Part shown: positions 2,751 to 41,500 of the stretch, one piece after another
Numbering within the stretch: the first letter of the stretch is position 1
Layout of the letters: every line of letters starts with the position of its first letter
IMG/VR virus record: IMGVR_UViG_3300030109_003194
Location: 7,266-49,758 of that record
Source of the DNA: a virus
DNA: 42,493 bases
Direction: 5' to 3' (one strand)
The notes under the pieces: generated by a model
The model's input: only the letters and a program-made list of their open reading frames with translations
Database searches by the model: none
Told to the model about the DNA's origin: nothing
Position numbers and translations under genes: made by a program

Positions 2751-3608
2751 TTACTGTGTTGGTAGTGCTTGAATTTTACTACTATGAGCCACACACAGAA
2801 CTATACGAGCTTCTAGGGATGTTTCGTAAACAGAAAAGCTCGTCGATAAGTCACTAGTTTTGTAGTTTTTAACATGCTGTTTTATCTTCTTTATAAGGGA
2901 CGTATCCTCTAAAAGGTCTTGTTTCGGTATCCCATAATAAAAGTGGATGTCCGTAGCCTTTGCCAGTGGAAATAGTAGATTTATACTTGCACCCTCTTCC
3001 TCTATGGAGGAGGTTCCCAAAGTTACTATTCTTGAAATATTAGAAGGCTGGATCTTGTTTGCCAAGACTGGCTCTGTGTGTGTAAAGTAGTTTATCATAG
3101 CTAAAACATAAGCAACAAAATAAGAAACTGACTTTTCATATTCGCTGATAGAGACATCACCTATTAATTGATCTAGTGATGGCTGATTTACTAAGAATAT
3201 GCTTTCCAGCACCCCACTTCGAGCATATTCTTGAAGAATATTGTAACATATCTTGTCATCTCGTTTGCGAATTTCTGATATCATCTCTCTGTCGGGGCAT
3301 AAATATAAGACACTTAAGTTGGCATCCTTGATCGTTTCTAGAATCTTAAGAGTAGTGCCGGAAACTGGATCGCCGCCCTCTACAATCAAAAGGACATCAT
3401 CATCTTGCTTGATGGACCTTAGGTAAACCGAGACTTCATCTTGGTCTAAGCTCTGTTCGTAGTTATCGATTGACTTCTGAGGGTCTAACCTAAGAGTGCC
3501 CCGCTCATCGATACCGGCACCAATTTTATAAATTCTATATTCCGGGTATGCCGTTAGCTCTTCTGCTACAGAGCAACCAAGTTTCCCTAAACCTATAACT
3601 TTATCCAA
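2751..3608 (-). CDS. Degenerate tubulin/FtsZ-superfamily protein
   Basis: A 285-aa protein with the layout of an FtsZ/tubulin GTPase domain but a degraded active site. Visible landmarks are a glycine loop IGLGKLGCSV at 5-14 (T1), a hydrophobic strand then VEGGDPVSGTTLKIL at 76-90 in the place of the GGGTGSG T4 loop, a following strand with LYLCPDRE (T5 region), a helix and FLVNQPSLDQL at 138-148, a long central helix, and TEPVLANKIQPSNISRI at 178-193 where the T7 loop should be. The acidic T7 residues that catalyse GTP hydrolysis in FtsZ seem replaced by Gln/Ser/Asn. The start is TTG 3608, overlapping the polymerase end by 8 bases, with GAGGG upstream. It may cap, regulate or co-polymerise with the intact homologue at 35.6-36.8 kb. 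The family call comes from motif order and is less sure than for that gene. Confidence 0.65.
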   Translation of the reverse strand: MDKVIGLGKLGCSVAEELTAYPEYRIYKIGAGIDERGTLRLDPQKSIDNYEQSLDQDEVSVYLRSIKQDDDVLLIVEGGDPVSGTTLKILETIKDANLSVLYLCPDREMISEIRKRDDKICYNILQEYARSGVLESIFLVNQPSLDQLIGDVSISEYEKSVSYFVAYVLAMINYFTHTEPVLANKIQPSNISRIVTLGTSSIEEEGASINLLFPLAKATDIHFYYGIPKQDLLEDTSLIKKIKQHVKNYKTSDLSTSFSVYETSLEARIVLCVAHSSKIQALPTQ

Positions 3609-4821
3609 CCTTTATATCCCTCAAGGATCCTAATGTTTTGCCTTTTTTTATGTTTACCAAAAAATCGCCAAAGTTGGTCGTGCTCATCAACGCAACCAAT
3701 GACTTAAGTAGGTTTTCATCCTCTTTTTTCATATCAATGATAACCGCATCGTGAATAAGAAAAGCTAAATGAGACCCTGCCGAGCGGGTTCTTAATAGAT
3801 GCTCTATCTTTAGAGCCTGTTTTAGAGTCAATTCTGCGGCGGTTGATTGAACCAAGTAGTTCAGAGCGTGATGCTCGCTGGCGTCGCTTATCTTCTTTCT
3901 AAATGGCGTTGTAACTGTGTTACCATCCCAACATTCTTTGAGTAAGTTATCTTTTTCGTAAAACTCCTCTAACTTTGACGTCTCTTCTGAGTTTGCTGCT
4001 CTTTTTGAGCCATACAGCCACGCAAAAAATGCTACCTTTGCTTGGGCTCTTGTGCTTATACTCGTAAATATCTCATTTAGGTGAAAATCATGAACGTCAC
4101 CTTGGGGTTGTTGTTTTCCGAGGAGCCCCAGGAGGGTACGCACCTCTGCCCCGTTAAAATCTAATTCAATAAAGTAGTCATTCTGTGGTTTGATCGCTGA
4201 ACGGAATTCTTTACTCATCGTAAGAATTGGCACATAGCCATTTTTAGTAGTTAAGCGACCGGTCTTTGTGCCAAACTGATTGTATTTGACATATGGACTT
4301 GCTTCTAGAATCTTCTTGGCATGATTCTTTAACTTTGATGAATTGACATACGCAGAGACAACCTGGCGGTCTATAGTCACCTTGTGATGACTAAGGTCTT
4401 CAAGCATCATACACACATGTTTATAAAATTCATACCTATCTGGCTTGGGAACATTATTCGCAATGTGTTGTGTAATTTTATTTTTCACCTCGCAAAACTC
4501 AACCAAGAACCTATTTGGCACTAAGTCAAAGAAACAATTCTCAAATGTATTTACTTGAGATATTGATAAGGATCGTTTGAAAGCATTAATCTTCTTTAGT
4601 ACGTCGTCCCAGTCATCTTTTAGATACTCCGGTATGGTCTCCGAAATGTTCTTACCCTCTAAATAAAGCGATATATATTCCACATCAAGATCCCTAAGAT
4701 AAGAAGAATATTTCCATGTCTTACTTAGGTTGGAAGGAAACTCCTCCATATCAAATACTAAATTGTTGTCAGCGTAAATGCCAACGCATTCGGTCTTATC
4801 GTCAAGTGTTTGAAAAATCAA
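3601..4821 (-). CDS. Short family A DNA polymerase (polymerase domain only)
   Basis: Template-directed DNA synthesis. From the chosen start (406 aa) the family A motifs appear in order: KTGRLTT at about 186-192, motif A LDFNGAEVR at about 220-228, motif B RAQAKVAFFAWLYG at about 258-271, a VQSTAAELTLKQAL helix, and motif C HDAV at about 357-360. Both metal-binding aspartates and the motif B lysine are kept, while the usual Glu of HDE is Ala. At about 400 aa it is far below T7 polymerase (about 700) and shows no 3'-5' exonuclease motifs in its N-terminal 170 residues. The start is TTG 4821 with TAGAGG just upstream; an earlier in-frame TTG at 4857 lacks a binding site and would overlap the upstream gene. 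Proofreading, if any, must come from another protein. Confidence 0.85.
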   Translation of the reverse strand: MIFQTLDDKTECVGIYADNNLVFDMEEFPSNLSKTWKYSSYLRDLDVEYISLYLEGKNISETIPEYLKDDWDDVLKKINAFKRSLSISQVNTFENCFFDLVPNRFLVEFCEVKNKITQHIANNVPKPDRYEFYKHVCMMLEDLSHHKVTIDRQVVSAYVNSSKLKNHAKKILEASPYVKYNQFGTKTGRLTTKNGYVPILTMSKEFRSAIKPQNDYFIELDFNGAEVRTLLGLLGKQQPQGDVHDFHLNEIFTSISTRAQAKVAFFAWLYGSKRAANSEETSKLEEFYEKDNLLKECWDGNTVTTPFRKKISDASEHHALNYLVQSTAAELTLKQALKIEHLLRTRSAGSHLAFLIHDAVIIDMKKEDENLLKSLVALMSTTNFGDFLVNIKKGKTLGSLRDIKVG

Positions 4822-4832
4822 TTCAACCTCTA

Positions 4833-6341
4833 CTAACTGGATAAAATTATATCCCAAACATGCGCTAGTGTTAATGGATTCTTATCTAAGGGGCCAATGT
4901 ACTCCTCTTGTAAATACCTTAGTGTCCTTTGATAAGCTGCTTGATCGCCCTCTTTTATAGACAAATTATAAAGATTAAGAAAATCTTGAACTTCTTTCAT
5001 AGCAGCACGAGGATCGGCAGTTGTTTGGCGCTCCATGTTTCGAAGAATATAAAAAGTTTTTAACTTCCACCTGTTGCCGTAAGTTTTTTCAAAGAAATCA
5101 GGTTGAATAATTTTTCTATCGATAGAGAGACTAACAGGAGGACAGGTATGAGTGCCAGAAGTTCTTACAAGAGTTGAAGGTTTCGATGTAACATAGAAGT
5201 TGTAAAAATAGATTAGATACTTTTGAAGGGTTTCGATATCTGAAGACCATGTTTCTCTGTAATCTATCATATACATTATCTCATAGACCAAACTTGGCTC
5301 TTCATTTTCCAAAATAGAGGTCCAATTATCGGCAACACGAGCATCGCCCTCGTTCTTCTTGTATCGAGCATACCCTGGAACTGGCTCTCCATCTGGAATA
5401 GTGTAAAATGCAATGTGCCTTATGACATCCTCAAGACCTGGGATTTGGGAATAACCATAAGCCATTGGTGGGAGTTCATTGCCCTCAATTGCTGGCTTAC
5501 ATATGTAATCATAATCCTGCCCGATGTCAAAACCAACTATGGGCACACCTGTCATATACTCTTGCATCGCAGGACTAGAAATATCAGCGACGAGGCGAAA
5601 GGGTATATTTTTATCAATCATAAATCCGTATTGGGCTACAATATTAGAGACCACATCAAAATTTTCATCTAAAAATTTATAACCTTTGTTGAAGTCATCA
5701 TCATAGTCATCATCAGATATTTCAATAATCAGTCCAGACATATAGTTTGGTGTCCCATAACCCTCAATCATCCCAGATCTGGTTAGGGGTCCTGTTTTAC
5801 TAATAATATTTGTAGAAAACTCATTAAACCTTTGAAGAAATGTATGAAATCCTCTAACCTTAGCATCATTGTTTAAAGATGTCATAAAAGAGTTTGCAAA
5901 GATAGGGTAAACCTCGTTTCTCAAATACAGATCGTAATGATCTTGGAGAGGTTGCCATGCTTTGAATGCTTTAGGGTTCGCCCAAGGACTATCTTTGAAT
6001 ATAATATTTTCTCTAGCTAGTTTTCTTAGTCGTAAAGAAAGGTCGCTCCAAGCATCGGCAACGAAGTTCAAGGCAAACAACTGCTGGTCTGAGTCTCCAG
6101 GGAATCTTAGTGACTTTAGCCTACTTTGATCAGGCACAACTGTGTTACCCTTTGTGTTGACTAGTCCATAAAATCGATCTGTCGTCCAAGTTGAAAAAGT
6201 TTTAGTGTCGCCATGAAATAAGTCAAAGAGAGCCTCGTACCTCTTCCGCTCATTAAATATTTGTTTTGCCTTGAGACTATTCGAACCGTAAGAATATACA
6301 CCTGCGTTTGCAAGGGGATTTGTTCTTGGTTGCCTTGTCAT
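4833..6341 (-). CDS. Probable virion/baseplate protein of unknown function (502 aa)
   Basis: I do not recognise a family. It is a soluble 502-aa protein rich in aromatic and acidic residues, with an Asp cluster (SDDDYDDDFNKG, about 209-220) and no signal peptide or membrane segment. Its ATG overlaps the stop of the upstream 1072-aa gene as ATGA, implying translational coupling. It is the last gene of the tail/baseplate block, just before the replication genes, so a baseplate or tail-tip role is the best contextual guess. Large size and single-domain appearance would suit a wedge component, but nothing in the sequence proves it. Confidence 0.8.
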   Translation of the reverse strand: MTRQPRTNPLANAGVYSYGSNSLKAKQIFNERKRYEALFDLFHGDTKTFSTWTTDRFYGLVNTKGNTVVPDQSRLKSLRFPGDSDQQLFALNFVADAWSDLSLRLRKLARENIIFKDSPWANPKAFKAWQPLQDHYDLYLRNEVYPIFANSFMTSLNNDAKVRGFHTFLQRFNEFSTNIISKTGPLTRSGMIEGYGTPNYMSGLIIEISDDDYDDDFNKGYKFLDENFDVVSNIVAQYGFMIDKNIPFRLVADISSPAMQEYMTGVPIVGFDIGQDYDYICKPAIEGNELPPMAYGYSQIPGLEDVIRHIAFYTIPDGEPVPGYARYKKNEGDARVADNWTSILENEEPSLVYEIMYMIDYRETWSSDIETLQKYLIYFYNFYVTSKPSTLVRTSGTHTCPPVSLSIDRKIIQPDFFEKTYGNRWKLKTFYILRNMERQTTADPRAAMKEVQDFLNLYNLSIKEGDQAAYQRTLRYLQEEYIGPLDKNPLTLAHVWDIILSS

Positions 6342-9300
6342 GTTGATGTCCCCCCTCTAGGATCTTTCTTTTGAAAAACACACTCAAGAGATGTCTCATA
6401 AGTACCGCCGGCAGTGATTGTATGAGTGGCAAATTTAACGTTATAATATCCACCTATGCCAAGTATTGGACCAGCGTAAGAGCCTAACGCAGGAGAACTA
6501 TCAACAAACAAGAAATCACCAACTTTGTGAATACCATTCCCGTACATTTGAATAGTAACATCCTGGGGCAAAAATACTGATTTAGCGACACCAACTGTAG
6601 TGCCAGTCTCAATATTCATTTCTGTAAAATAGGGTATATCTTGTTTTGAAAAATTAAATCTTTTAGCAAGCCCTCTATCAGAACCAACCACATAGTGGTA
6701 AACCCCCTCTTTTTCATCGTCTATTCGCTTACCCTTAAACCTATCTAAGTCATAACTTCTAGCATATATGGTATAGTAATTATGCAACTTTGTGCCAAAT
6801 TTAGCAGTGGGGTTTAATTCTCCTGCTCCTATTTCTCTGAGTAGACCGTTTGATAGGTTTCTACTGGTGAGATTCTTAAAAGAGTCAGTACTGGGCTTAG
6901 TTGTTGTAGTAACCAAACTAGTTTCAAACTCTATATCCTCTGTAGACTGAGGGTCTCTGTTAAAAGCTGAAGATAGATATCTGAGTAGATGTTTTTGAAA
7001 AGTGTTGTAAGGCAACTGTATGAGACCGGGCTTGACAATTTTGTCATAGAAAAGCTGTCCGAATGTACCAAGTGTTATAGGTATATCGTATATTGAGTAT
7101 CTGTATCCTGTTTTTGTTTCGTGGTTTCCGAGAATAAAACTTACATCATCTCTCATCCCAGCCTCTTCCATTGCTGTCAGCAAAACATCACCCAAACGCA
7201 TATAGTAAACGTCCACCTCGTTTTGTGTAGGAGGTAGCGGCTGTTCCTCTGGTCCATAAATTGACATTCCTGCGGCGGCTTCTTCTGCCGCTTGCTTTTC
7301 AAGTCTTGCCTTCTTAGCAGCATCAGTTTCATTTTGCATTTCCCGTCGTCTGTCACGAGCAGCTATTTTATCAGGATCGTATATGATGTCAACTTTTGAT
7401 TTTCCATCGTTTGCCAAGACAACCCTAGCTTTAAAAACTCGATCCCCGGCATCGATCATTGCATCCATAAAAGATGAATAAAGATCTCTCTTCTGGTTGG
7501 TGGTTGCTCTATGGTACAAAAGGCTTAGCATTTGACCTGATGTTCTTAATTCAGAATATTTTTCGCTCTCTGTTGGTGTATTTAGTAACTCCAAAAGTTG
7601 CATTCTTTTTTTAATTAACTCACCAGATAACTTGAGTCCGCCAAGAGTAACCATTATAGTAGTTTCTCCTTGTTCGTCAATGGCAGGCGACCGGTCTTTG
7701 GATCTCAGATAGGGGCTAAATTGACTACTAGTAGACAGAGCATTAATGCTTTTACCAACAGAATAAGCGGGATCCTTTTGACCTGCGTTCGCAGTTTTTG
7801 GATCTACAACATTTCCTTTACGCATCTTGAAACCATCAACAGAAACAGCTACTGGATTCCACATCTTAGATGCACTCTCAAGGTTACTACTTCCAAAAAT
7901 ATCAGAACTTTCATTAGCGAGATAATTTCTCACTGAGCCATCAAAAGTTATGTTGAGGGTTGTTGGACCTTCTTGTGTAAAATTTATATCATGCTGCCGA
8001 TATTGCAATAAAATAGCACGGTTTGATGCCTGAACGCCATTCATAAAGGCTTTGTATTGACTCTCTGTTGAAAAAAGTTTTTTCATCATCCTTGTGTTAC
8101 CTTTAGGGAGCGACCACCCAACAACCACCTTTAGTTTTCTAAAGTTTCTTTTGATAGAAGTAGTAAATCGTTTCTGTGCGCCAGCAGTTCGGATTTCTGA
8201 TTCACTTTTTCCGAGAACAGCTTCTAATTTATTGATCTGGTCGATCAATAACTCTTTCTTTTGTAAATCTATACCCGCAGCCGTAGTGGGTCTTGTTTTC
8301 TTCTTTTTGGGATCATTGATTGCCAATGCATCTGGGTTGTCAATCCCACTCGGAAACAAAAACTGTAGATAATTAACATTAGTAAGCTCTGCCAGAGATC
8401 CAAAATATATCTCCATGTTTGATATCAATGTATAATCACCTTCGTGAGCCGTATGAAAACGCCACTGGAATGATTTTATCCCTGCCTCTGCTCCTTGTTG
8501 ATTTTTGGGTCCGAGCAGTTCATATATGCTCCCTTTTTTTCGGATATCAGCCATATTTTTTATGTGTTTTGCGGAACCATACTCACTAAAATATATCTCT
8601 TCCTGGCTTCCTTCAGAATCGACCATGAAGAAACGCATCTGAGGCACCAATAACCCTAATTGAGCAGGAGTAGCGTGAATAAATGCACCCATTAATCCAC
8701 TAGGGTGAGCATAACCAGACATACGAGATATGAACGTTCCGCCGGGAATCTCATCTGTCAAAGAAAATATATGCTTTGGTTTATACTTTTTGCTCTTACT
8801 GCGATCAAGCTTCTTGAAGTGTTCAGATATTGTATCAATATCATTAATCATCAGAGCCTGAATGTTTTTTATGTACCGAGGTAATGTCGGTGGCTCTTCT
8901 GGTTTTCTTTGTGCTTGTTCGACTTCAGCAGCATGTACTTGTGCCGAAGCTTCTGATTTTTGAATAGGCGCCAGAATTGCTACCTTGCCACCATAAGGTT
9001 CAGTTAGATTACTAACACCATTCTCGCTGACACTAGCGGCGATTTTTGCAAGGATCTCGGCTGTTTGTTTTTCTGTGAGAAGGCCGCTAGATTTAACACC
9101 AGACAGTGATGATTGAATTCGATAATAGTTTTTTGTTTTGGGGTCAAAAACAACACCCCCTTGCATTGGTACTAAGGTTTTTACCCAATCCTCATCGGTT
9201 GTACCAGCTTGCAGGCGCTTGTTTGCATCTATCTTAGCTTGGCGGCGAGGCTGCTTAGGACCAGCTTCCGCTTCGGACTGAGCTAGTGCCTCTGCTTCTC

Positions 9301-9556
9301 TTTGGTCTCTGCGAGCCCTGATTGCCCCATAGTAGGCTTGCTGTGCTGTAATCAGGGCTTGTTTAGCTTCTGCTGAGGTCTCTGGGTCAGCTATTTGTCT
9401 TGCTCGCTTTCTAACTTGTGCTTCAAGCTCAGCAAGGTTTCTATCATAATTAGCAGAGCCTGGTTTGTTATCCTTGGACGCATATGGATTGTCAGGGTCG
9501 TGGACACCCGGTCCACTGTTCCAGTAATTGTCGTCTTTTACTTCTGGGGTTGACAT
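6338..9556 (-). CDS. Large virion structural protein, probable baseplate component (1072 aa)
   Basis: The largest gene of the window. Residues about 1-240 are low-complexity, rich in Ala, Glu, Gln, Lys and Arg, and probably disordered or coiled. The remainder is beta-rich, with segments such as FISRMSGYAHPSGLMGAFIH, SMLLYHRA-type helices and a conserved-looking region around YDIPITLGTFGQLFYDKIV near residue 860. A second charged helical patch lies around residues 720-750. Its position after tape measure, a tube-cap candidate and a gp53-like wedge suggests a hub or wedge protein, comparable in place to T4 gp27/gp6-type components, but I cannot align it to a named family. ATG 9556 follows the gp53-like stop by 12 bases and its own stop overlaps the next start. 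Confidence 0.85.
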   Translation of the reverse strand: MSTPEVKDDNYWNSGPGVHDPDNPYASKDNKPGSANYDRNLAELEAQVRKRARQIADPETSAEAKQALITAQQAYYGAIRARRDQREAEALAQSEAEAGPKQPRRQAKIDANKRLQAGTTDEDWVKTLVPMQGGVVFDPKTKNYYRIQSSLSGVKSSGLLTEKQTAEILAKIAASVSENGVSNLTEPYGGKVAILAPIQKSEASAQVHAAEVEQAQRKPEEPPTLPRYIKNIQALMINDIDTISEHFKKLDRSKSKKYKPKHIFSLTDEIPGGTFISRMSGYAHPSGLMGAFIHATPAQLGLLVPQMRFFMVDSEGSQEEIYFSEYGSAKHIKNMADIRKKGSIYELLGPKNQQGAEAGIKSFQWRFHTAHEGDYTLISNMEIYFGSLAELTNVNYLQFLFPSGIDNPDALAINDPKKKKTRPTTAAGIDLQKKELLIDQINKLEAVLGKSESEIRTAGAQKRFTTSIKRNFRKLKVVVGWSLPKGNTRMMKKLFSTESQYKAFMNGVQASNRAILLQYRQHDINFTQEGPTTLNITFDGSVRNYLANESSDIFGSSNLESASKMWNPVAVSVDGFKMRKGNVVDPKTANAGQKDPAYSVGKSINALSTSSQFSPYLRSKDRSPAIDEQGETTIMVTLGGLKLSGELIKKRMQLLELLNTPTESEKYSELRTSGQMLSLLYHRATTNQKRDLYSSFMDAMIDAGDRVFKARVVLANDGKSKVDIIYDPDKIAARDRRREMQNETDAAKKARLEKQAAEEAAAGMSIYGPEEQPLPPTQNEVDVYYMRLGDVLLTAMEEAGMRDDVSFILGNHETKTGYRYSIYDIPITLGTFGQLFYDKIVKPGLIQLPYNTFQKHLLRYLSSAFNRDPQSTEDIEFETSLVTTTTKPSTDSFKNLTSRNLSNGLLREIGAGELNPTAKFGTKLHNYYTIYARSYDLDRFKGKRIDDEKEGVYHYVVGSDRGLAKRFNFSKQDIPYFTEMNIETGTTVGVAKSVFLPQDVTIQMYGNGIHKVGDFLFVDSSPALGSYAGPILGIGGYYNVKFATHTITAGGTYETSLECVFQKKDPRGGTST

Positions 9557-9568
9557 AACTCTCTACCT

Positions 9569-12996: not shown

Positions 12997-13338
12997 TCAG
13001 CGACGTATGGGCCATACGATACCCGACTCTCTTTCAAACTTCTTAATAGCCATATCAAGCCTGGCTTTCTGCTTGTAAGTCATAGGGTCATCGAGACCAT
13101 ATTTTTTTATTAGGTCCATGTATTTCTTTTCATTGACAAGCGCATCAGTAAAGCGCTCAACCTCAATACGAGTCCCTCTAACACGCACCGGTATACGGCG
13201 ACCCTTAAACATCTTCGATAAAAGGTACTGAATCCAGGCTGCAAAAACATTCAGGATGTTTTCGTTTATGGCAGCACTTTCGTCTAACTTCTTAAAGTCT
13301 GCTAGATCAAGGATTTCATTTTCAAAATCAATTTTCAA
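12997..13338 (-). CDS. Small protein between chaperone and tape measure genes (113 aa)
   Basis: Unrecognised. It is predicted mostly helical and basic at the C-terminus (KKFERESGIVWPIRR), with a central GRRIPVRVRGTRIEVERF strand region. The start is TTG 13338 with GAGGG seven bases upstream; no ATG is available at the N-terminus. Its position between the tail-assembly chaperone and the tape measure gene suggests a tail-assembly role, for example in chaperoning the tape measure protein, but this is context only. Confidence 0.75.
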   Translation of the reverse strand: MKIDFENEILDLADFKKLDESAAINENILNVFAAWIQYLLSKMFKGRRIPVRVRGTRIEVERFTDALVNEKKYMDLIKKYGLDDPMTYKQKARLDMAIKKFERESGIVWPIRR

Positions 13339-13389: not shown

Positions 13390-13605
13390 TCACGACTTGA
13401 AGGATTTACCTCTACCAGAAGATGCTCGCCTGTTGGAGGCGTTAACCGCTTCCGCTTCATCTTTTTTCTGTTTTACCAATCTTTCCAAAAACCAAATACG
13501 AACATTTACTGGTAAATTATAGGTCTCAAAGAAGCTCCAACCACCGTGATACTTCAATTGAAATAGCTGTTCGTAAACGTTCTCAATGTATTCCTCAGTT
13601 AGGCC
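13390..13605 (-). CDS. 51: gp51-like frame extension of the gp26-like gene
   Basis: A 71-codon open frame with convincing protein character (GLTEEYIENVYEQLFQLKYH, then GGWSFFETYNLPVNVRIWFL and ERLVKQKKDE). It begins only after an in-frame TAG, at the U7 run inside the gp26-like gene, and has no ATG, GTG or TTG before codon 17. It lies in the +1 (equivalently -2) frame and overlaps the gp26-like stop. A +1 or -2 slip on U7 would give a fusion of about 355 aa. Pairs of this kind directly before the tape measure gene are tail-assembly chaperones in many phages. An alternative is initiation at ATT 13587, which has GAGG five bases before it. Confidence 0.75.
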   Translation of the reverse strand, partial: GLTEEYIENVYEQLFQLKYHGGWSFFETYNLPVNVRIWFLERLVKQKKDEAEAVNASNRRASSGRGKSFKS

Positions 13606-14458
13606 AAAAAAAGTCTATACCAAGCGGAACCTCCATGTCCGCTGTATGTCCGCACTCAGGACACTCAAAGTTTTGGGTTAAATCAATGTTGGGAACAATG
13701 CTCCCATAAATTCGCCGGAGGGTGCGAGCGTCTCTCGCTGGCATTGCCTGTATAAAGGACTCAATAGTAACTCTATTATCATCGCCATTGACGGCTACGA
13801 TATAACTTCTAAAAGTATCTGTTGTTGCCGAAGATTCGATCCTCTTCTTTTGTTTTCTGTCTGTCTCACGAAGCAGCCTGTTCTCATCTGCCGATGTTAG
13901 AAAGCGACACGTCACAGTTGCACGGGTCATTGGAAGCGTAATATCAACTTGACCGCTATCATCTATCTTTGCCGACCAATCACTAGCTTCCTCTCTAAAA
14001 TCAATACATCTAGGCTCCGAGATATCAAAAGAATACTCAACCGTTGAATCACATGCCGGACAGGCAGTGGTTGTCTCATATTCTGGGCCATATCCTGTGC
14101 GGCGGGCAGCAACCAAAAGAGCGTTTTTATCGCCCACCAACAATGTGTTAGTATCGATTGATCTGTCAACAATCAAGTTCTGCAACATTCTATCTAATGC
14201 TACACCTTCTTTGAGGAGGGCTCGTGACGTAAGAATATCCTCTTCCTTTGCGGTCATAAAACGAATCTCTACAGACTCGGCACCATGTAGAGGGTGACCT
14301 TCCGGGTAAAAAATACCTTTACTAGGTAATTCTACAAATTCAGTTGGTACTGACCAATTAAAAGCAGGAGAAGACGCCTCTCCACTATGTGGGGCTGGTG
14401 TCTCATCCTGTGTAAAATGCTCTTCATCTAAACCTAGTCGGTTTGAATTTCGACTCAT
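13595..14458 (-). CDS. 26: gp26-like tail/baseplate assembly protein with two CxxC pairs
   Basis: Resembles the T4 gp26 baseplate-hub assembly family. The 287-aa product has VELPSKGIFYPEGHPLHG at 42-59, FMTAKEEDILTSRALLKEG at 67-85 and two cysteine pairs, CPAC at 133-136 and CPECGH at 266-271, which could bind one zinc. The N-terminal 35 residues are acidic and flexible. ATG 14458 has AAAGG upstream. It is followed by the overlapping gp51-like extension and then the tape measure region, matching the T4 order 26-51-...-29. The frameshifted product would replace the last three residues (WPN) with 71 new ones while keeping both zinc pairs. Confidence 0.85.
   Translation of the reverse strand: MSRNSNRLGLDEEHFTQDETPAPHSGEASSPAFNWSVPTEFVELPSKGIFYPEGHPLHGAESVEIRFMTAKEEDILTSRALLKEGVALDRMLQNLIVDRSIDTNTLLVGDKNALLVAARRTGYGPEYETTTACPACDSTVEYSFDISEPRCIDFREEASDWSAKIDDSGQVDITLPMTRATVTCRFLTSADENRLLRETDRKQKKRIESSATTDTFRSYIVAVNGDDNRVTIESFIQAMPARDARTLRRIYGSIVPNIDLTQNFECPECGHTADMEVPLGIDFFWPN
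13606..13612 (-). other. Probable programmed frameshift site (U7)
   Basis: Seven consecutive U in the minus-strand mRNA, read as GAC UUU UUU UGG three codons before the gp26-like stop. A phenylalanine tRNA on the second UUU can re-pair perfectly after moving +1 or -2, entering the frame that encodes the 71-residue extension. A homopolymer sequencing error (true length 6) would give the same fused frame, so the run length needs checking. Confidence 0.6.
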
Positions 14459-14513: not shown

Positions 14514-15086
14514 TTATGATTGTACTTGACTGACGCTAGCGGGAATACCCTGAGTGGTGAAGTTCAACTGAGCCCAATCAAAGGCTATTTCGACAGTTAT
14601 CTCACTCATGTTGTCATCATCATAACTCAAAGTTCCACCAAAATCTACACTGGTGATAAATGGGTTAATCATTTCCCAAATCTCAATTGCATTTCCTTTA
14701 TCATCAAGCTGCTTTAAGAATACCGAACCGATAGCTTGGCGGAAAGCATCCTTACTTAAGCTGTTTTTAGACAACCTTTGGTCGGTAGGATATTTATATC
14801 CAGCAGCGCCGAGAACGTCCAAGAAAGCATAAGATAAGTCAGGATTAACAGGATCAACCAGTGTTAAGCTGATTGGCTCCCAAGTCACTCTACCTGGATA
14901 TTTGAAAGTGTGATCGATGTATTGATGCTCTACTACATTTACAGTTGCACGGGGCTTAGTCGCTGTTTTCACAGTCCAAACCGGAATGTCACCCCTGTTA
15001 TTACCACCACGTTGTGAAAAACTTAGTTCAAATCGAAAATTGCGTTTTGGCTCGCTTTTCGAGTTGCTCCAGAATAGACTTGCCAT
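14514..15086 (-). CDS. 19: Tail tube protein (gp19-like)
   Basis: Forms stacked hexameric rings of the inner tail tube. The 190-aa length matches T4 gp19 (163 aa) allowing small insertions. Recognisable features are an N-terminal NFRFELSFSQRG strand, the WTVKTATKPRATVNVVEHQY segment, HTFKYPGRVTWEPISLTLVD, and a C-terminal strand pair around SEITVEIAFDWAQLNF. It lies directly after the sheath gene, as in T4 (18-19). ATG 15086 has an AGGAG-type site upstream. A 55-base gap without evident signals separates it from the gp26-like gene. Confidence 0.92.
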   Translation of the reverse strand: MASLFWSNSKSEPKRNFRFELSFSQRGGNNRGDIPVWTVKTATKPRATVNVVEHQYIDHTFKYPGRVTWEPISLTLVDPVNPDLSYAFLDVLGAAGYKYPTDQRLSKNSLSKDAFRQAIGSVFLKQLDDKGNAIEIWEMINPFITSVDFGGTLSYDDDNMSEITVEIAFDWAQLNFTTQGIPASVSQVQS

Positions 15087-15125: not shown

Positions 15126-18100
15126 TTAATCTTCGAAAGCTGCGCCACTATTTGTTATTACAAAGTCAATTGCGAAGTATTCAACTGCTCTAGTTGGCTT
15201 CACCAATAACTTAGCGTAAATAATATTTCTATCAACCAATTCAGGCGTTGTGGTAGTTTCATCCAAGATAAGCTTGAAGTCTTCAATACCAAAGTCTGCC
15301 TTTACATCTCTCAAAATGGGAAGAGCCTGTCCTTTGAAAGTATCCCAAGTTATAGTAGAATTAGGTCCGAACAACAATCTTGATGCTATGAAAGAAATTT
15401 CACGCTTCAAGAAGATCATCAAACGTCTAACGTTGATTCTATCCAGAGCAGAAGCCGTTTGTTGTAATGTTTTTTGCCCGAACACCACGATACCTTCAGC
15501 AGGGAACTTAGCGATAGGGTTGATGCCTGCTTCGTACAAAAGATCACGTTGATCTGAAGTCAGTCTGGTCGTAACATCAGTTACAGGGATACCAGCAGCG
15601 CCTTCAGTCAAACCACCACGGGTGAAACCAGCAGGTGCGAACCAAGGTGCTTGAATTCTGTCTGTGTTAGACAAAACACCCAAGGCTGCAACACTTGGCG
15701 GAGCCCACAATGATTGATCTCTGTTGTCATCATAGATTCGTACCCATGGATAGTAAGCAGCACCATAGCTATTGTTAATACTTCTATTAAGAAGAGTAGA
15801 TGCAGCAGTTCTTGGAATGTTAGCAGCATTAGCTGTCACTGGATCATCCTTAGTTTCTGCACGAGGAGTCCAAGCGTACTGAACATCGACAATAGCCAGG
15901 GTGTCACCACGAGACTCTGCCGTATCCAACAAGTAGTTAGTGACCGGAGCAGCCCAGACACCTGGGATTGTTGCTGCGTTCATCTGGACCACTTCGGGGT
16001 CAGCTACCATGTTTATAGCTTTCCTTAGAGAGAACAGACCATAGGAGGTTTGTTCTGTTTTCCCAGTTATATCCTTATTTGCAAAAGGATCACGTTCTGT
16101 TTTATTGTATCCGTCAGAGCCACCAGCAAGAACTGTAGTGAATCGATCGATACCTGCATCAAGAACCGTAGTGTAGGAGTTGCTACCAACAGCGCTGATG
16201 CTAAGTCCCGAAGCACGGTTACCCGAAGCCCAAGTAGCAGAACCACTAAGATCAGCACCACTTAGACTTCCAGCCACGTCATCAAGTGAGAAGGCGTAAG
16301 ACAACACAATCGGGCTTGAGCCGCTGTTGGTTGTCGTACCGTCAACATCTTGAGTAGGGTCATATGCTGTTGCTTCTGTCGAGGCGTTGAACGCTCTAGG
16401 TCGAAGCAAGTCTGACATTTCAGGATTGTATTGTGTATCGCTGAAAGATCGACCAGTCCAAGCACCCCAATAGGTGTTATCGAGAGATCTCGGAGATCCC
16501 TGAGTAGAGCTTGTTCGGCAAGTAACTGCTGGGAAACTGACTGATCCCGTAAACCTGACCGTTGCTGCTTCGGTACCAGCCGAATCCACTGCGTATCTCA
16601 TCATGATAGGTGCGGCAACATAAGTTCCCTTGTCCGGAAGATTGTGTCCGTCAGTACCAAAAGAGGCGGAAGAACCTGGTGCAATCATTGACAAAGCGGA
16701 CAGAGGAGCACCTGCGAGAACTGGATTGTCCGCAACCGCAGCAAAATTCTGCGGAGATGTAGATCCCGAGGTAATTGTTACGTTACGGTATTTCGGAGGT
16801 CCGAAAACACCGAAAGGCAAAAGGCGGGTTTCGCCAATACCTGCGGCAACATCAGGGTCCATAACCACTCGAATGTAGTTCGATTGATTTGCAAACTCAC
16901 CATATTCCACAGAACGCTTGTCGCTCTGAGAATATACTTGGTACCTGTCACCGATTCTAGCTGCAATATAATCTCTAGATGCTGGATTCAGGTTTAGGTT
17001 ATCATACCTTTCAATAATAATTTTATTATTATCCGTGTCTTTCATATCTCTAACAAGCAGAGAGAAACTTCCATAAGGCTGAAAGTCTCCTTTGCCTGCT
17101 TTGAGGTTAGCGATAGAAATCTTGATTTCTCTGTTGAAGTTTTCACCTGCGGTAAGAGCTTCAATGCGAAATAATCTCTGCATACCTTTGTGAGTATAAG
17201 CAGCATGATTTGTACCAAGATCTTGAGAGAAATACCAACCAGTAGACGCTTTGCGTGCAGCGCCCAAGAAGTCAGCCTGATCGTTAGTAAATGTCGTGGC
17301 AGCCGTCTTTGTTACCATTGGAACAATAGCACCAAAATAATTGCTAACGCCGCCATCAATAGCCAAGAGACCCAAAGATGCGGCACCAGCTTCACCGAGG
17401 CGGTTCTCATAAGTTTCACCCAGGAAGTACTTACCACCTTGATAAAAAGTTTGAGTATCGCTGTTTGTGATATCACTGTTTGTAATAGTAGGATCTGTAT
17501 TTAGAACTCGGCGAATGTAGTTAGGCTTCGTGTCGTTAAAGCTAACTATTTCTTTATGAGACATTCCGGAACTAGCTGTAAACACCAGAGCGATATTGTC
17601 AAGGTCGGATCCAAGATCTATAAGGGTTGACCCCACTTGGGTGCCAAGGGTATCGCCGCCTCTAACGTTGCCAGACAAAAGAACACGACTATCTTTGCAG
17701 TAAAATTGTGCTGCAAGAGTTCCTGTTGCGTTAAGTACTCCGCTGCCACTTGGGAAGATAAGCAGACCGTAAGCGCCACCCTGATCGGTAGCAGCGCCAG
17801 CAGTCGCATCCAGGTTCCAACCTGCACGACCTGTTGTGGCAGTATATCCGTTGGATTCATCACCTAGAACACGCATAAACGTGATCGGAGAGTTGCTAGC
17901 CAACCAAGCTTTAGCAGCATAAGGTGCATAAGTGGGTGCGTTTAAATCACCAACACGCCACACATCTCCGCCTTCATTACCGGCAACAGGGTCACCGAAT
18001 GTTTGCACGAAATCAGAAAATGAATTGATTTGAACGGGCTTGTTAGCTGGACCTTTTCTGGCACGACCAATAACGAGAGGTCCTACTTCTGAAGGGACCG

Positions 18101-18182
18101 CTGGAAGCTCGGAATTATCGATCTCTTTTATAAAAACGCCAGGTGATATAAACTTAAACTTTCTGGAAGAGTTGTCAGCCAT
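15126..18182 (-). CDS. 18: Contractile tail sheath protein (gp18-like)
   Basis: Forms the outer sheath that contracts to drive the tube into the host. The 1018-aa product is much longer than T4 gp18 (659 aa). The N-terminus carries the sheath motif FISPGVFIKEIDNSELPAVP and GPLVIGRARKGPANKPVQI. The C-terminal 150 residues carry the other polymerisation domain (GINPIAKFPAEGIVVFG, then ALDRINVRRLMIFLKREISF), ending in strands that complete the neighbour's fold. The long middle, roughly residues 120-750, is Gly/Ser/Thr/Asp-rich and presumably contains extra surface domains. ATG 18182 has GAGGAG upstream. It follows the gp15-like gene and precedes the tube gene. Confidence 0.95.
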   Translation of the reverse strand: MADNSSRKFKFISPGVFIKEIDNSELPAVPSEVGPLVIGRARKGPANKPVQINSFSDFVQTFGDPVAGNEGGDVWRVGDLNAPTYAPYAAKAWLASNSPITFMRVLGDESNGYTATTGRAGWNLDATAGAATDQGGAYGLLIFPSGSGVLNATGTLAAQFYCKDSRVLLSGNVRGGDTLGTQVGSTLIDLGSDLDNIALVFTASSGMSHKEIVSFNDTKPNYIRRVLNTDPTITNSDITNSDTQTFYQGGKYFLGETYENRLGEAGAASLGLLAIDGGVSNYFGAIVPMVTKTAATTFTNDQADFLGAARKASTGWYFSQDLGTNHAAYTHKGMQRLFRIEALTAGENFNREIKISIANLKAGKGDFQPYGSFSLLVRDMKDTDNNKIIIERYDNLNLNPASRDYIAARIGDRYQVYSQSDKRSVEYGEFANQSNYIRVVMDPDVAAGIGETRLLPFGVFGPPKYRNVTITSGSTSPQNFAAVADNPVLAGAPLSALSMIAPGSSASFGTDGHNLPDKGTYVAAPIMMRYAVDSAGTEAATVRFTGSVSFPAVTCRTSSTQGSPRSLDNTYWGAWTGRSFSDTQYNPEMSDLLRPRAFNASTEATAYDPTQDVDGTTTNSGSSPIVLSYAFSLDDVAGSLSGADLSGSATWASGNRASGLSISAVGSNSYTTVLDAGIDRFTTVLAGGSDGYNKTERDPFANKDITGKTEQTSYGLFSLRKAINMVADPEVVQMNAATIPGVWAAPVTNYLLDTAESRGDTLAIVDVQYAWTPRAETKDDPVTANAANIPRTAASTLLNRSINNSYGAAYYPWVRIYDDNRDQSLWAPPSVAALGVLSNTDRIQAPWFAPAGFTRGGLTEGAAGIPVTDVTTRLTSDQRDLLYEAGINPIAKFPAEGIVVFGQKTLQQTASALDRINVRRLMIFLKREISFIASRLLFGPNSTITWDTFKGQALPILRDVKADFGIEDFKLILDETTTTPELVDRNIIYAKLLVKPTRAVEYFAIDFVITNSGAAFED

Positions 18183-21087: not shown

Positions 21088-22851
21088 CTATGCTACCGGT
21101 CGATCTACGTTAGAGACCAGATCTTGACACACGACCAAGCCATACATGTCAGGACGTACCATCTTCTTAGCATAGCGAGTCATGACACCCTTGCGGGGCA
21201 CGAAATCTTCTGTACCAAAGATGGTCGGCGTGACTTGCAGCGGGACGTAAGGAGCGTAGACATATCCACTTTCGAGGAAGCTAGCACCCTTGCGACCAAC
21301 AAGAAGCAAGTTGCGAGTGAAGTAAGGATCGACAACAATGTCCATCTTACGGCTGATAGAACCGACGTTCATAGCACCCCAAGAACCACCATCAGCGTCA
21401 ACCTGTACGTTAGCACGGAAGCCAGCAGTAAATTCAAGGATGTTAGCCATTTCGGGAGAGCAAACGATAAAGTTTGCGCCGCCACGAAGCGTCTTACGGT
21501 GAATACGAGCACTAACTTCGTTGACTGTCTCAAGGAGAGTCTCGTACCATTCAGAAACGGTACCAGTGAAGTCAGGGTAGGAAGTACCACTAAGGGCAAG
21601 ACCTGTCTCACGGTTCACGAACTTGCCTGGGCTACGAGACCAGTACAATGTACCAGCAGTTGCGCCCTTAACAAGGTCTTCAAGAATTTCTTGATCAATT
21701 TCAAGAGCAACTTGTTCGGACAAGATGCTTGTCAACTCAACTTCAGCGTCGAGGTTGTGGTAAGCATTCAAGTCTTGAGCCAACTCAGGGCTCCACTTAG
21801 CTTTGAGCTTCTTGGTGACAGCGGTAACAGCCGTAGAATCAACCTTGATGTCGATTTCTGGGATGTTGTTGTTGTGCTCCAAGCCCCAAGTAGAAGTACC
21901 TACGACAGCACCAAGAGGTGTAGCATCAGTAAATCCGTCAACCAATGGGTACGTTGCAGAAGCAACACCACCAGCAGCGGCACTCAAAACAGCATGTGCG
22001 TCAGAGAAGATGCCCATGGTTGGCATTGCGAGAACAACCAACAAGTGATCTTCAGCAGTTCCAGAGAACTGAGTCAAAGCACGGACCTGGAAGGTAGCAG
22101 CGCCTGCGCCCAATTTATTAAAGTTACCAGCAGAACCAAACGAACTAGAAAGAACGTAGCCAACCAGGTTATCTTTGTTAATGTCAGAAGGTGTTGGAAC
22201 CTTACCGACAAGATATCCAGAAGTACCAGAGGTAAATACAGGATCAGCCTGAAGAATCGTAGCGAAATCTTTAGAGCTTTCTGTCACACCGTATGTACCA
22301 GAAGCAAGAACTTCTACTGTATTTGTAACAGAGCCTGTGGGGCTAGAGTAACCGTTGTTCAAACTGTAAGCCGAAAGCTGGCCGTTGTTGCCACCGAGAT
22401 CGATGCCATCAATAATACCAGCACCAACTTTACCACCACCATAAACAGAAGTTTCGGCGACCTGAGCCAAGCGATTGGGCTGGCTACCATCAGAAGTTGG
22501 GTGCATACCACCATCTGGCGAGAACACAAAGTCTAGGAAGAAAATGAGTCCGCTAGGAAGCGACATGGGCTGCACAGACACGAGGTCTTGTGCGATAAGG
22601 TTGCCGAATACACGGCGAACGATTGGGAAAGCAACTGAGGCGAAGCCTTGAACATCACCTGCTTGCATTGTGCTCGTTTCTTTGAGAAGTTGAGCGGCTT
22701 GGTTTTCCAAAAGGCGTGCCATGGCACCAGCTTTGGTGTCGTCGAGCCCTTCGAGAAGACCAGTCTTCTCCCACTTCTCAAGGAGAGCTTCACCTTCATT
22801 AGCAAGCGAACGTTGTCGAATGCCTTCGGTGAGAGTTTCTAATACAGACAT
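21088..22851 (-). CDS. 23: Major capsid protein (gp23-like)
   Basis: Main shell subunit, HK97 fold in T4-type phages. The 587-aa product contains the gp23 signature near the N-terminus: MARLLENQAAQLLKETSTMQ, GFASVAFPIVRRVFGNLIAQ and DLVSVQPMSLPSGLIFFLDF. The C-terminal half has the conserved FIVCSPEMANILEFTAGF, and YVYAPYVPLQVTP regions. T4 gp23 is trimmed near residue 65 by the prohead protease; the N-terminal 60 residues here look like a similar propeptide but the site is not certain. Codon use is clean and a strong terminator follows the gene. It is directly after the scaffold gene with a 19-base gap, as in T4 (22-23). Confidence 0.96.
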   Translation of the reverse strand: MSVLETLTEGIRQRSLANEGEALLEKWEKTGLLEGLDDTKAGAMARLLENQAAQLLKETSTMQAGDVQGFASVAFPIVRRVFGNLIAQDLVSVQPMSLPSGLIFFLDFVFSPDGGMHPTSDGSQPNRLAQVAETSVYGGGKVGAGIIDGIDLGGNNGQLSAYSLNNGYSSPTGSVTNTVEVLASGTYGVTESSKDFATILQADPVFTSGTSGYLVGKVPTPSDINKDNLVGYVLSSSFGSAGNFNKLGAGAATFQVRALTQFSGTAEDHLLVVLAMPTMGIFSDAHAVLSAAAGGVASATYPLVDGFTDATPLGAVVGTSTWGLEHNNNIPEIDIKVDSTAVTAVTKKLKAKWSPELAQDLNAYHNLDAEVELTSILSEQVALEIDQEILEDLVKGATAGTLYWSRSPGKFVNRETGLALSGTSYPDFTGTVSEWYETLLETVNEVSARIHRKTLRGGANFIVCSPEMANILEFTAGFRANVQVDADGGSWGAMNVGSISRKMDIVVDPYFTRNLLLVGRKGASFLESGYVYAPYVPLQVTPTIFGTEDFVPRKGVMTRYAKKMVRPDMYGLVVCQDLVSNVDRPVA

Positions 22852-38150: not shown

Positions 38151-38581
38151 TCTTTTTTGAAACCCTCAAAATAATAAACTGACTCACAAATATAAGGAAA
38201 GGACGAGTTTACTGCCTGAAGACGCAGGGAACCAAACACGACATCAGGGCGGTCTTGGTGACTGGAAACAATCCAATCCAGTTGCATTTCCCAAAACCCA
38301 GCGTCGTTACAATCAAAGGTAGTACGGGTTGTACAACTATTGGCTTCCCATTGGCTAGTATTTAAAGAACACCCAGCCCTGTCATCTGGGGGGAGTGGCG
38401 CTCCGTCGGTAATTATAGTATCTACGGTTTCCCACACTCTACCGCAATCACCGCCGTGTTCTGCTAGGTGTAGGGTGTAGTAGCCGTTTTGTGTATCTTG
38501 CCCGACAGCGCAGTCTCGCTCTTCAGCGTCTCCACACGCAGCTAATAATATAATACAAGCAGCAATTTTATTGACTGACAT
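38147..38581 (-). CDS. Cys-rich lipoprotein (144 aa)
   Basis: Signal sequence MSVNKIAACIILLAACGD with lipobox LAAC, so a lipid-anchored, exported protein after cleavage; several more Cys (in RDC, GDCG, GCS, SCTT, DCND, ICES) suggest disulfides in the periplasm or outer membrane. The start ATG 38581 overlaps the SbcCD end by 14 bases and gives the normal signal peptide; a longer start at 38611 does not. No lysin or enzyme motif is recognised. It could be an outer-membrane spanin-like partner, a superinfection-exclusion protein, or cargo from a host genome. Confidence 0.75.
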   Translation of the reverse strand: MSVNKIAACIILLAACGDAEERDCAVGQDTQNGYYTLHLAEHGGDCGRVWETVDTIITDGAPLPPDDRAGCSLNTSQWEANSCTTRTTFDCNDAGFWEMQLDWIVSSHQDRPDVVFGSLRLQAVNSSFPYICESVYYFEGFKKE

Positions 38582-41500
38582 AAGCATAACCATCTTGACG
38601 CTCAATGTCAATAGTCATATCGGCAATATCTTTGAGACTATCCAAGTGAGTAATCAAAAGCACAGTCTTGTAGTAGCCCTTAATCATTTCCATCACTCGC
38701 ATAAAGCCTTCAAGGTTCTCAGCGTCCAACGCTGTGCCTGGCTCATCCATAATCATAATGTCTGATTTTGGTAAGGTTGACACATTGGTTAGGGCAATGC
38801 GAATGGCAATCGCTGCCAGCGTCTTCTCTGCTCCAGAAGCCATCTCTAAAGGTCGTGCTTCGTACTTTGGATGCTTGATGAAGATATCTAACTTATTCTT
38901 TTCTGCCTCAAAGAAAATCTCGAAGTCGGTGACGTTAGAAAGAACAGTACTGACCTCATCATTGATAAGAGGGAGCATCCGCTTCACCACATCATAACTG
39001 ATACCGTTGCTGTGAGTACAACGCATAAACAAGTCATAGGCTGAATACTCTGTGCGGAGATCTTCTAGCTCCTGCTTCTTCTCTTGGAGATTAATGATCT
39101 GCTGCTCAATGCCGCCATGCTGCTTGATGTAATCCATAATCTTAGCTTCACAGATAGAGAGTTCATTTTCGGTCAGAAGTTTTTGCTCAGCTAAATCAGA
39201 CTGTTCTTGAATAAGTCCTTCACGGTTTTCAATAGCCTCTCGGTTATCTTCATAGATTTGAATCCGGTCGGAAGCAGTTTTGATATCATTAGTGAGCGTA
39301 TTAATTTCGTTGTTTGTTTTTTCTACAAACAAGTCGAGGTTGGTTGTCTCGGCTGACAAAGCTCTCTGCTTCTCTAGAAGTTTTTCGTGTTTTTCCTTTT
39401 GAGAACGTAAGCTATCAACATTCATTTCTTCTAGCTGCTGGTTGTATTGTTGTAGCTCTGTCTCAAGATTATGGATTGTGATACGAACCTCAGTAAGCTT
39501 GGACTTACTTTTATAGGCATCCTTAATAAACTTACAGTGAGAAAATTCTGGTCCGCATGGAACTTCTCCCAGGAGCTTAACACGCTTCTCGTAAGTTTGC
39601 TTGTTACGGTTCTCAAGCTTAAGGGTGGTCTCCAATGTCCTAACTTCTTCTTTTATGGCTAGGACTTCAGCAATCTGAGACTCAAGGGCTATATTATCAT
39701 ATTCTCCTAAGAAATCGTCTATTTTGGTTAGCTTTTCTAGAAGTATTTCCTTCTTCTTTTGGGCTCCCGCAACTCGAAGATCGCAGTCTTCTAGTTTAGC
39801 GGTAGCTTTAGTGAGGCGCTTGCTCTCCTTCTTGATGCTGATAATCTCAACAGGAGCGGACGCAAAGAGGCTTTCTATTTCATCGACACGGGCAGTAATT
39901 TTGTTTAACTTGTTCTTAAACTTTTTACAAGCCTTCTCTTGTTTTGTCTTTTCTGTCTCGTTATTCTCTAGTTGACTACTAAGTGTAACAATATCGTCAT
40001 CAAAGGTATTATCCTCTAGTTTTTTAAGCAACGCACGGGTCTCAATGCTGTCGCCCTTAGCAAGCTTGAACTTCTTGTCGAATTGGTCAAGATCTAAAAA
40101 CTTAGCTAGGATCTCCTTACGCTTGGTTGAGCCCTCGTTGATGAAAGTCATCGCACCCATCTGACTAGACATACTTGTAAGCAAGAAGTCGTCAAGGCTT
40201 CCAAAGATCTTGCGAATAGCCTTGTCGGTTCCATTGCGATCTAGTGAGTTCAGACTGACTGGCTCGTTGGTTGCCGGGTCAATCATAGTAAACTCTACAT
40301 CAGTCTTAGCCTCTTCGGTCTCTTCGCCGTGAAGCTTCTTGGTATACTTTTCCGACTTGCGCTCGATGATATAAGTCTTACCAGCAATATCAATCTCAAC
40401 TCGACCGCTAGCAGCAGGCTTGTTCTGATTAATCATATTCAAGTTCTTGCGAGTATTCTTACTGATAGAGTTATAGACCGTATAAAGCATACTATCAATA
40501 ACAGAACTCTTACCTGAATAGTTCTTACCGAAGATACCGACAACCCCGTTGAGCTTTTCAAAGTTTACAGTATTACCTTCTCCAAAGTTGAAGAGGTTGC
40601 TGAACTCCATCTTCTTCAAAGCCCAGTTTACATTACGCATACTGGCATCTTCGCCATTGACCCGAGCATCATAGCGTGAGTTAAGCTGGAATACTTTCTC
40701 TAGGGTCTTAGTATCAGGTTCATATTCTTTTAAGTATTCCCGAATAAGTCGCTCTTGAACAGCGGGGTCTCGTAAGTTCTCTGTGCTACCAAGATCATCG
40801 ACATCCACACTAGAGCGTTTTAGTCCTGCCTTGTTCACGAATGATAGGCTCTCGGGCTTGAATTTGCTCTTGGCGGTATCCATCACACGGCGGATCTTGT
40901 CTAGGGATACCTTGTGATGAGTAACGATACGCAGACGACAACCCTGTTGGATGTCTAGATTACGTGGCATATTGCCTTTAGGCGTAAGCTCGATTGTAGT
41001 GAATGGCTTGGGGTTTTTCAGAACGTGATGACTAACCTCATAGTTAGTCTTGTCCTCAATATCCCAGATCAAAAAGCCCTTGTCGTTTGTCTCGCCGTGG
41101 TTTTGCTGGATAGTAGAACCACAGTAACGAATTGTACCCGTATCGTTGAGGCACTGATTAGTCTTGTGGATATCTCCAAGGAACGCATAGTCAAATTTAT
41201 CAAAGACCGCTACATCGTGGTCGCCGTGGTCCATAATCCAACCGAGGTCGGTTCGGCTGTTGTTCACTGCTCCATGGTACAGAGCGATATTGATGCGATC
41301 AGCATCTGTTGGATCGGTCCAGTTGGTTTCATCAAAGACCGATAAGACATTTAGTGTAACGTTATGATCTAATTTTACTTCCCCTGCAAACTTATGTAGG
41401 TGAAGGTCTGGGTGTTCTAAGGCATCAACGATTGGAGTGATAGCGTCTTGACGACTGCTGTTTCGTAGGTTGCCGTCGTGGTTCCCAAGGATGATATGAG

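Follow-up and report, generated by a model that had tools for sequence, protein, structure and literature searches.

On the minus strand of the window, by which we mean the whole 42,493-nt stretch analysed here, a gp26-like gene is overlapped at its end by a second open frame of 71 codons. How is this second frame translated? The first-pass annotation proposed a +1 or -2 programmed frameshift at a run of seven U, which would join a gp26-like part to a gp51-like part. Comparison with relatives points to programmed +1 ribosomal frameshifting, through which two tail assembly chaperones are probably made from one gene (probability about 0.86). The +1 site of the gp26-like chaperone gene is very probably functional.

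Gene order, overlapping frames and predicted proteins

The window belongs to a 61.6-kb virus record, in which profile matches identified the T4-type genes for UvsX, SSB, DNA polymerase, sheath, tube, major head protein, portal, head protease, terminase and SbcC/SbcD. On the minus strand, the sheath gene is followed by the tail tube gene, the gp26-like gene, the second frame, a 113-codon ORF and a candidate tape measure gene (Table 1). The chaperone locus sits between the tail tube gene and the candidate tape measure gene, the latter being called by its position and length. The second frame had been described as starting at the U7 run within the gp26-like gene without a usual start and ending just before the tape measure region. 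The first part of this description holds, but the frame does not adjoin the tape measure gene, because the 113-codon ORF lies between them.

Table 1. Positions of the features of the chaperone locus in the window
Feature	Position	Strand	Basis
Tail sheath protein	15126..18182	-	phrog_23, E 1e-65
Tail tube protein	14514..15086	-	phrog_4542, E 2e-24
Putative TAC-N (short form of the tail assembly chaperone), the gp26-like zero-frame protein of 287 aa	13595..14458	-	PF12322, phrog_150, fold
Predicted 5' hairpin directly upstream of the slip site, core stem AGCGGA/UCCGCU at 13623-13643	13617..13647	-	folding
Strongest synonymous conservation block of the gene, codons 275-286, including GGAGGU	13601..13636	-	40 members
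TAG that closes the +1 register and bounds the shift upstream, three codons before GGC	13615..13617	-	sequence
Slip site TTT TTT TGG CCT; predicted +1 re-pairing UUU U to UUU, then GGC	13601..13612	-	conserved 12-mer, limited variants, 77 + 155 + 10 loci
Predicted C-terminal domain read after the +1 shift, 71 codons + stop, would give TAC-NC	13390..13605	-	+1-open in relatives
TGA, zero-frame stop, downstream limit of the shift	13595..13597	-	sequence
Small ORF, 113 codons, TTG start, between chaperone and tape measure candidate	12997..13338	-	ORF list
Candidate tape measure protein, 724 aa	10811..12985	-	position, length, weak coiled-coil-like matches

Side observations were made on other genes of the window. 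The sheath protein is unusually long (1018 aa), with the conserved sheath domains in its last third. A 1050-codon ORF (38568-41720, minus strand) matches SbcD-like families over residues 1-342 and SbcC-like families over residues 184-1049, and the equivalents of T4 gp47 and gp46 may be fused in it. A 470-codon ORF (21124-22536, plus strand) runs antisense through the major head protein gene and is probably a by-product of codon use. At 3601-6341 on the minus strand, the DNA polymerase match is limited to a 418-codon ORF and to part of the profile, and a 502-codon ORF without family match lies just upstream; the polymerase may be split here.

At the junction, the zero-frame codons of the minus strand are GGT ATA GAC TTT TTT TGG CCT AAC TGA. 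The second frame reads TAG ACT TTT TTT GGC CTA ACT GAG, which is the +1 register. The zero frame has 287 codons and ends at 13595, and the second frame runs from the GGC at 13605 to a stop at 13390. With TAG as the upstream limit and TGA as the downstream limit, the shift is confined to the 18 nt GAC TTT TTT TGG CCT AAC. Within the 71-codon frame, the sole ATG, GTG or TTG is the TTG that forms codon 17 (13557) and falls within the conserved domain. The predicted fusion peptide spanning the junction contains IDFFGLTEEYIENVYEQ.

The gp26-like protein matches PF12322 T4_baseplate with 52.5 bits (cut-off 24.5, E 7e-14) and the phrog_150 baseplate hub family with E 2e-15; its match to Pfam Phage_TAC_19 is insignificant (E 0.037). 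The short form and the C part were modelled separately. Among the PDB chains ranked highest by Foldseek, the short-form model (pLDDT 84) is most similar to YqbN (3klu, Z 6.1) and the HK97 tail assembly chaperone (2ob9, Z 5.8), followed by 3.4 for the next chain, all of them below Z 8. Its viral fold matches are gp26 and gp51 relatives. The gene order and the fold, with YqbN and the HK97 chaperone as the best PDB matches, suggest that the locus encodes a short and long tail assembly chaperone pair.

The model of the C part has three helices (pLDDT 87.5) and gives weak matches to cyanophage gp51, the Moogle tape measure chaperone and other tail chaperones, the match to P-HM1 gp51 having E 0.3 and a probability of 0.98. 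By profile, 4 of 89 relatives match phrog_634 (gp51) in their C domains, with a best E of 0.003, and in 35 of 89 there is a weak match to the uncharacterized family DUF6760 (PF20546). The C domain of the window matches phrog_20255 only (E 8e-5). A direct comparison of the C-domain profile with T4 gp51 gave no match, a PDB sequence search with both profiles found nothing, and the PDB fold matches of the C domain were uninformative. This part had been labelled gp51-like, and its homology to gp51 is weak. T4 gp51 itself is more than such a downstream part: it repeats the gp26-like portion and extends it at the C terminus (gp26 versus gp51, E = 2e-6), so a short (N) and long (NC) chaperone is a better description than a gp26/gp51 fusion.

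Conservation of the +1 relation and direction of the shift

The +1 relation was found in all 76 IMG/VR relatives that hold the junction, in 155 of 155 loci of two further subfamilies and in 10 of 10 loci from genome bins. The queries for the 155 loci came from the cultured Microcystis phage Mel-JY01 and Flavobacterium phage immuto, and both phages are counted in. All of the 241 relatives show the same +1 relation with the conserved peptide in the +1 frame. In two of the 155 loci (L132 and L161) another frame is also open by chance; the slip motif is in the +1 frame in both, and the +1 frame of L132 also has the conserved peptide. Across 121 non-redundant members the C part is 57-114 codons long (median 71). 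Substitutions in the C part fall mostly at the third base of the +1 frame (17,860, versus 9,215 at position 1 and 3,896 at position 2), a coding pattern which indicates that the C frame is under purifying selection. Sequence comparison thus confirmed that the overlap of the gp26-like gene with the 71-codon +1 frame is real and beyond chance. The proposal that a programmed shift at the U run joins the gp26-like protein to a C-terminal part at the tail chaperone position is very probably right. A homopolymer of seven is the usual place for sequencing errors, and a sequencing or assembly error, or a decaying gene, was considered. This is the least probable reading of all: the 241 relatives come from independent assemblies and agree, some of them without the homopolymer, which refutes the idea of a miscounted run of six U, and decay is contradicted by the purifying selection on the C frame.

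The slip motif has the form TTT TTT TGG CCT, with the variants TTC TTT, TTT CTT, TTT CTA, CTT TTT and a TAC in the A site. In 60 distinct IMG/VR sequences, the 12-mer was TTTTTTTGGCCT in 50, TTCTTTTGGCCT in 8, and TTTCTTTGGCCT and TTTTTTTGGGCT in 1 each. In the 155 further loci it was TTTTTTTGGCCT in 110, TTTCTTTGGCCT in 35, TTTCTATGGCCT in 4 and CTTTTTTGGCCT in 3, and another 3 had the A-site TAC. The U7 run is therefore kept in most relatives, and the variants keep the +1 relation. Rhodothermus phage RM378 has T7GG and LR756508 has TTT CTA, both with +1. A DNA-level search of cultured phages found no relatives, and IMG/VR searches with SP-15 and RM378 queries returned only the queries themselves. 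Many members with differing flanks (L004, L007, L018-L024, L034) share an identical block, GGAGGTCCCGCTCGGCGTGGACTTTTTTTGGCCT, around the slip site, a pattern that suggests strong selection or local exchange. In the gp26 relatives of Streptococcus GXN1, Listeria LIS04 and Bacillus SP-15 (L085, L086, L087), a +1 open frame also follows, and the site differs: CCC CGA, ACC CGA or GCC CGA, with CGA as the next codon.

The variants also inform on the direction of the shift. In the T7 members, the P-site UUU re-pairs perfectly one base forward. In the TTC TTT T and CTT TTT T members the second codon re-pairs at +1, and in the TTT CTT T and TTT CTA T members the first codon does so (UUU to UUC). Cognate +1 re-pairing is thus kept in every main slip variant. 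A -2 ribosomal shift of the phage Mu type would reach the same register with one extra residue, and T7 permits -2 re-pairing of UUU as in Mu, which uses -2 (PMC5009743). The TTC TTT T and TTT CTA T members keep the frame without possible -2 re-pairing, however: a -2 move would put tRNA-Phe on UCU in TTC TTT T and finds no match in TTT CTA T. Moreover, the predicted structure lies 5' of the site, as expected for forward shifting, and none lies downstream in the window's clade. On the strength of these natural variants, +1 is strongly favored over -2, and the Mu-type alternative, which is very improbable, was rejected. Of the +1 or -2 event first proposed, only the +1 part stands.

The motif is preceded by C, G or A and never by T (0 of 121 non-redundant members, against a background of 37%, P 3e-25). 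A T here would make U UUU UUU, a -1 site, so its absence argues that -1 slipping is blocked. The opposite arrangement was found in all five Kyanoviridae examined, of which four are cyanophages: in P-HM1, S-BM3, S-WAM1, S-PM2 and the Methylophilales phage Melnitz-3, gp51 is in the -1 frame at U UUU UUC or U UUU UUU, always with U before the motif. In the four that were measured, the 36 nt upstream of the -1 site form weak structure (-2.7 to -3.0 kcal/mol). LR756511 and Paride are apparently -1 as well. The T avoidance in the +1 group and the U-preceded -1 sites in cyanophages suggest that the direction of the shift is selected and differs between branches of one family. A +1/-2 event in a T4-type phage had been called unusual; the +1 direction and the 5' hairpin are indeed so, but frameshifting between gp26 and gp51 is not. 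Among the five Kyanoviridae loci (L269, at P-HM1 8677-9557, and L270, L271, L272, L273), gp51 is unannotated in S-BM3 and S-WAM1. The Kyanoviridae gp26/gp51 pair looks like a widespread unannotated -1 frameshift.

The C part might instead be a separate protein whose translation begins by coupled restart or at an internal site; in some cyanophages gp51 is annotated in this way. Many relatives have some ATG, GTG or TTG in frame, and the upstream GGAGGU could look like a ribosome binding site. In the window, GGAGGU has no in-frame start at a usable distance and the TTG at -11 runs into the TAG, and ATG, GTG and TTG are all absent before residue 9 of the C part in 34 of the 121 non-redundant members, the window being one of them. 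Separate initiation would also leave the slip-motif logic and the T avoidance at -1 unexplained. The probability of two separate proteins is very small, and for the window a separate gene with its own start was rejected, since there is no canonical start codon upstream of codon 17.

Synonymous constraint and predicted structure upstream of the slip site

For the window's clade, 40 non-redundant members were compared, and the top seven gp26 codons for excess synonymous conservation all lie at 275-286, which cover the slip site and about 25 nt upstream. Codon use in this block differs strongly from the background: GAG is used in 38 of 38 (46% in background), CCG in 35 of 40 (9%), GCG in 15 of 17 (10%) and GAC in 32 of 32 (37%). 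Individual codons reach P values of 1e-5 to 1e-32, and only the first-codon TTT is weak (0.013). Much of this constraint falls outside the dual-coding stretch.

The upstream region is predicted to fold. The window hairpin has an MFE of -9.6 kcal/mol (z -2.0), and in the window's clade the 36 nt upstream of the slip site average -9.9 kcal/mol versus -4.4 elsewhere in the gene. Downstream of the slip site, the sequence of this clade is unstructured and no stimulatory structure was found. Synonymous recoding with background codons weakens the upstream fold in 39 of 40 members of the window's clade (mean z -1.85). In the other two clades the fold is stronger than its recodes in 40 of 51 and 27 of 30, giving 106 of 121 over the three clades.

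Two alternative stems were recognized, H1 (-30..-27 with -15..-12) and H2 (-15..-12 with -6..-3). One or the other is present in 37 of 40 members (14 H1 only, 14 H2 only, 9 both), as compared with a mean of 2.3 and a maximum of 8 in 500 recoded sets; the stems were picked with the sequences already in view, which makes the count somewhat optimistic, while the energy test is unaffected. For H1, the paired changes (18 cells) exceed those in all shuffles (0 of 500), a result inflated by the kinship of the sequences; for H2, the shuffle test in the window's clade showed no covariation. RNAalifold gave no single consensus fold for this clade (3 bp only), as expected if the stem registers differ. 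A stricter test counted stems that end no more than 8 nt from the slip site: the fraction was 0.70 versus 0.21 in the window's clade, and the other two clades gave no significant result. The core of H1 stops 11 nt short of the slip site, and only its outer pairs reach nearer in the window. A Shine-Dalgarno stimulator was rejected: between the end of the strictly conserved GGAGGU and the P-site codon there are about 19 nt, more than the RF2 or dnaX geometry allows. In the longer predicted hairpin, GGAGGU would pair with ACUUUU.

A T run preceded by a hairpin is also the setting for stem-loop-assisted transcriptional slippage, in which RNA polymerase would drop one U of the T7 run beside the nascent hairpin; a one-base deletion gives the correct register and would bring part of the mRNA in frame. 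An IS element of the IS630 type in Roseiflexus reportedly combines a hairpin with T5C5 and a single-base deletion by transcriptional slippage. In the present family, however, the slippage-prone run beside the hairpin is interrupted in the TTC, CTT and CTA members. The broken-run members TTCTTTTGG (8 of 60), as well as TTTCTTTGGCCT (35) and TTTCTATGGCCT (4) among 78 immuto-like loci, keep both the +1 relation and the hairpin, which is at least as strong in interrupted-run members (-7.75 versus -6.39 in the immuto clade). Homopolymer slippage is impossible on TTTCTTTGG or TTTCTATGG and was rejected from the slip variants, and a terminator scan of the window called no intrinsic terminator at the slip site. 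Transcriptional slippage is therefore an unlikely explanation, although it could add to the effect in T7 members.

Proposed mechanism and comparison with known systems

Under +1 ribosomal frameshifting, most ribosomes would stop at the TGA at 13595 and release the short form TAC-N. A fraction of ribosomes, holding peptidyl-tRNA-Phe on UUU while UGG occupies the A site, would slip one base forward (UUU U to UUU; in the CTT-type relatives the first UUU would re-pair on UUC). They would then read GGC CUA and onward, adding the 71-residue helical C domain to give the long form TAC-NC. Refolding just behind the ribosome near the E site, the hairpin probably drives the forward movement, an effect that synthetic upstream hairpins have on 70S ribosomes; -1 slipping would be suppressed by the selection that keeps U from preceding the slip site. 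The N part may coat the tape measure protein and the C part may recruit tail tube subunits, in analogy to lambda G/GT.

A hairpin acting as a forward-shift stimulator is the mechanism we favor by analogy. To our knowledge, 5' hairpins as +1 stimulators are known mainly from synthetic constructs. Such synthetic hairpins, placed directly upstream against the slip site, raise +1 shifting and lower -1 shifting on 70S ribosomes and mimic the internal Shine-Dalgarno duplex of RF2 (PMC6321510). The +1 shifting driven by these hairpins required a starved stop codon, while the present A site is the sense codon UGG (PMC6321510 for the synthetic case). In the literature searched, with few subscription journals, there was no report of +1 shifting in T4-type gp26 genes and none of a tail chaperone +1 site with a natural stimulatory hairpin on its 5' side, and both the +1 direction and the 5' hairpin appear new for this phage group. 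A broader proposal has about even chances: hundreds of T4-type phages may share a natural class of +1 signal in which a cis hairpin near the E site replaces the RF2 Shine-Dalgarno duplex at a sense UGG, in a family that has switched between -1 (cyanophages), +1 (this group) and duplication (T4). A +1 site kept in a large T4-type group would mean that phages can adjust the chaperone ratio through a shift in either direction or through gene duplication, and, if true, would supply conserved natural 5' hairpin +1 stimulators. The missing long chaperone could be added to the annotation of hundreds of phage genomes that now lack the C part or list it as a separate hypothetical protein.

Xu, Hendrix and Duda reportedly described in 2004 a general frameshift of tail assembly chaperones. 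The present locus is like lambda G/GT in its position between tail tube and tape measure, in the predicted short and long chaperone from one gene, in the slip near the end of the short form and in the helical C domain. It is unlike lambda and most phages, which use -1, in the probable +1 shift, the predicted 5' hairpin and the lack of downstream structure in the window's clade. Known frameshifted tail chaperones are mostly -1, with -2 in Mu and +1 suspected in HSTV-2 (PMC5009743). The likely +1 in HSTV-2 also concerns tail assembly genes of a myovirus, a haloarchaeal one, so the host group is unrelated (PMC5009743). In T4-like phages, according to two papers (PMC10885494, PMC12846349), one short and one fused long chaperone gene take the place of frameshifting, a view with which the gp26-like make-up of T4 gp51 agrees. 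The locus shares the PF12322 N domain with T4 gp26/gp51, but T4 has two genes and no frameshift, whereas here one gene carries a probable +1 shift.

Vladimirov, Gautam and Davidson are said to have identified gp26 and gp51 as T4-like tail assembly chaperones in 2022 (Virology 566:9). Kyanoviridae gp26/gp51 resembles the present locus in the related N domain and the short C-domain ORF and differs in the -1 site and, in the four measured, in having no stable upstream structure. E. coli RF2 (prfB) shifts +1 at CUU UGA. The present site is like RF2 in having CUU or UUU in the P site, then U and a slow A-site codon, and an upstream duplex near the E site. It is unlike RF2 in that a sense UGG stands for the stop codon and an intramolecular hairpin for the Shine-Dalgarno duplex. 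As with the synthetic hairpins, the predicted hairpin lies just 5' of a CUU/UUU-type +1 site, but those belong to a synthetic reporter (PMC6321510), and the arrangement described here is natural and conserved.
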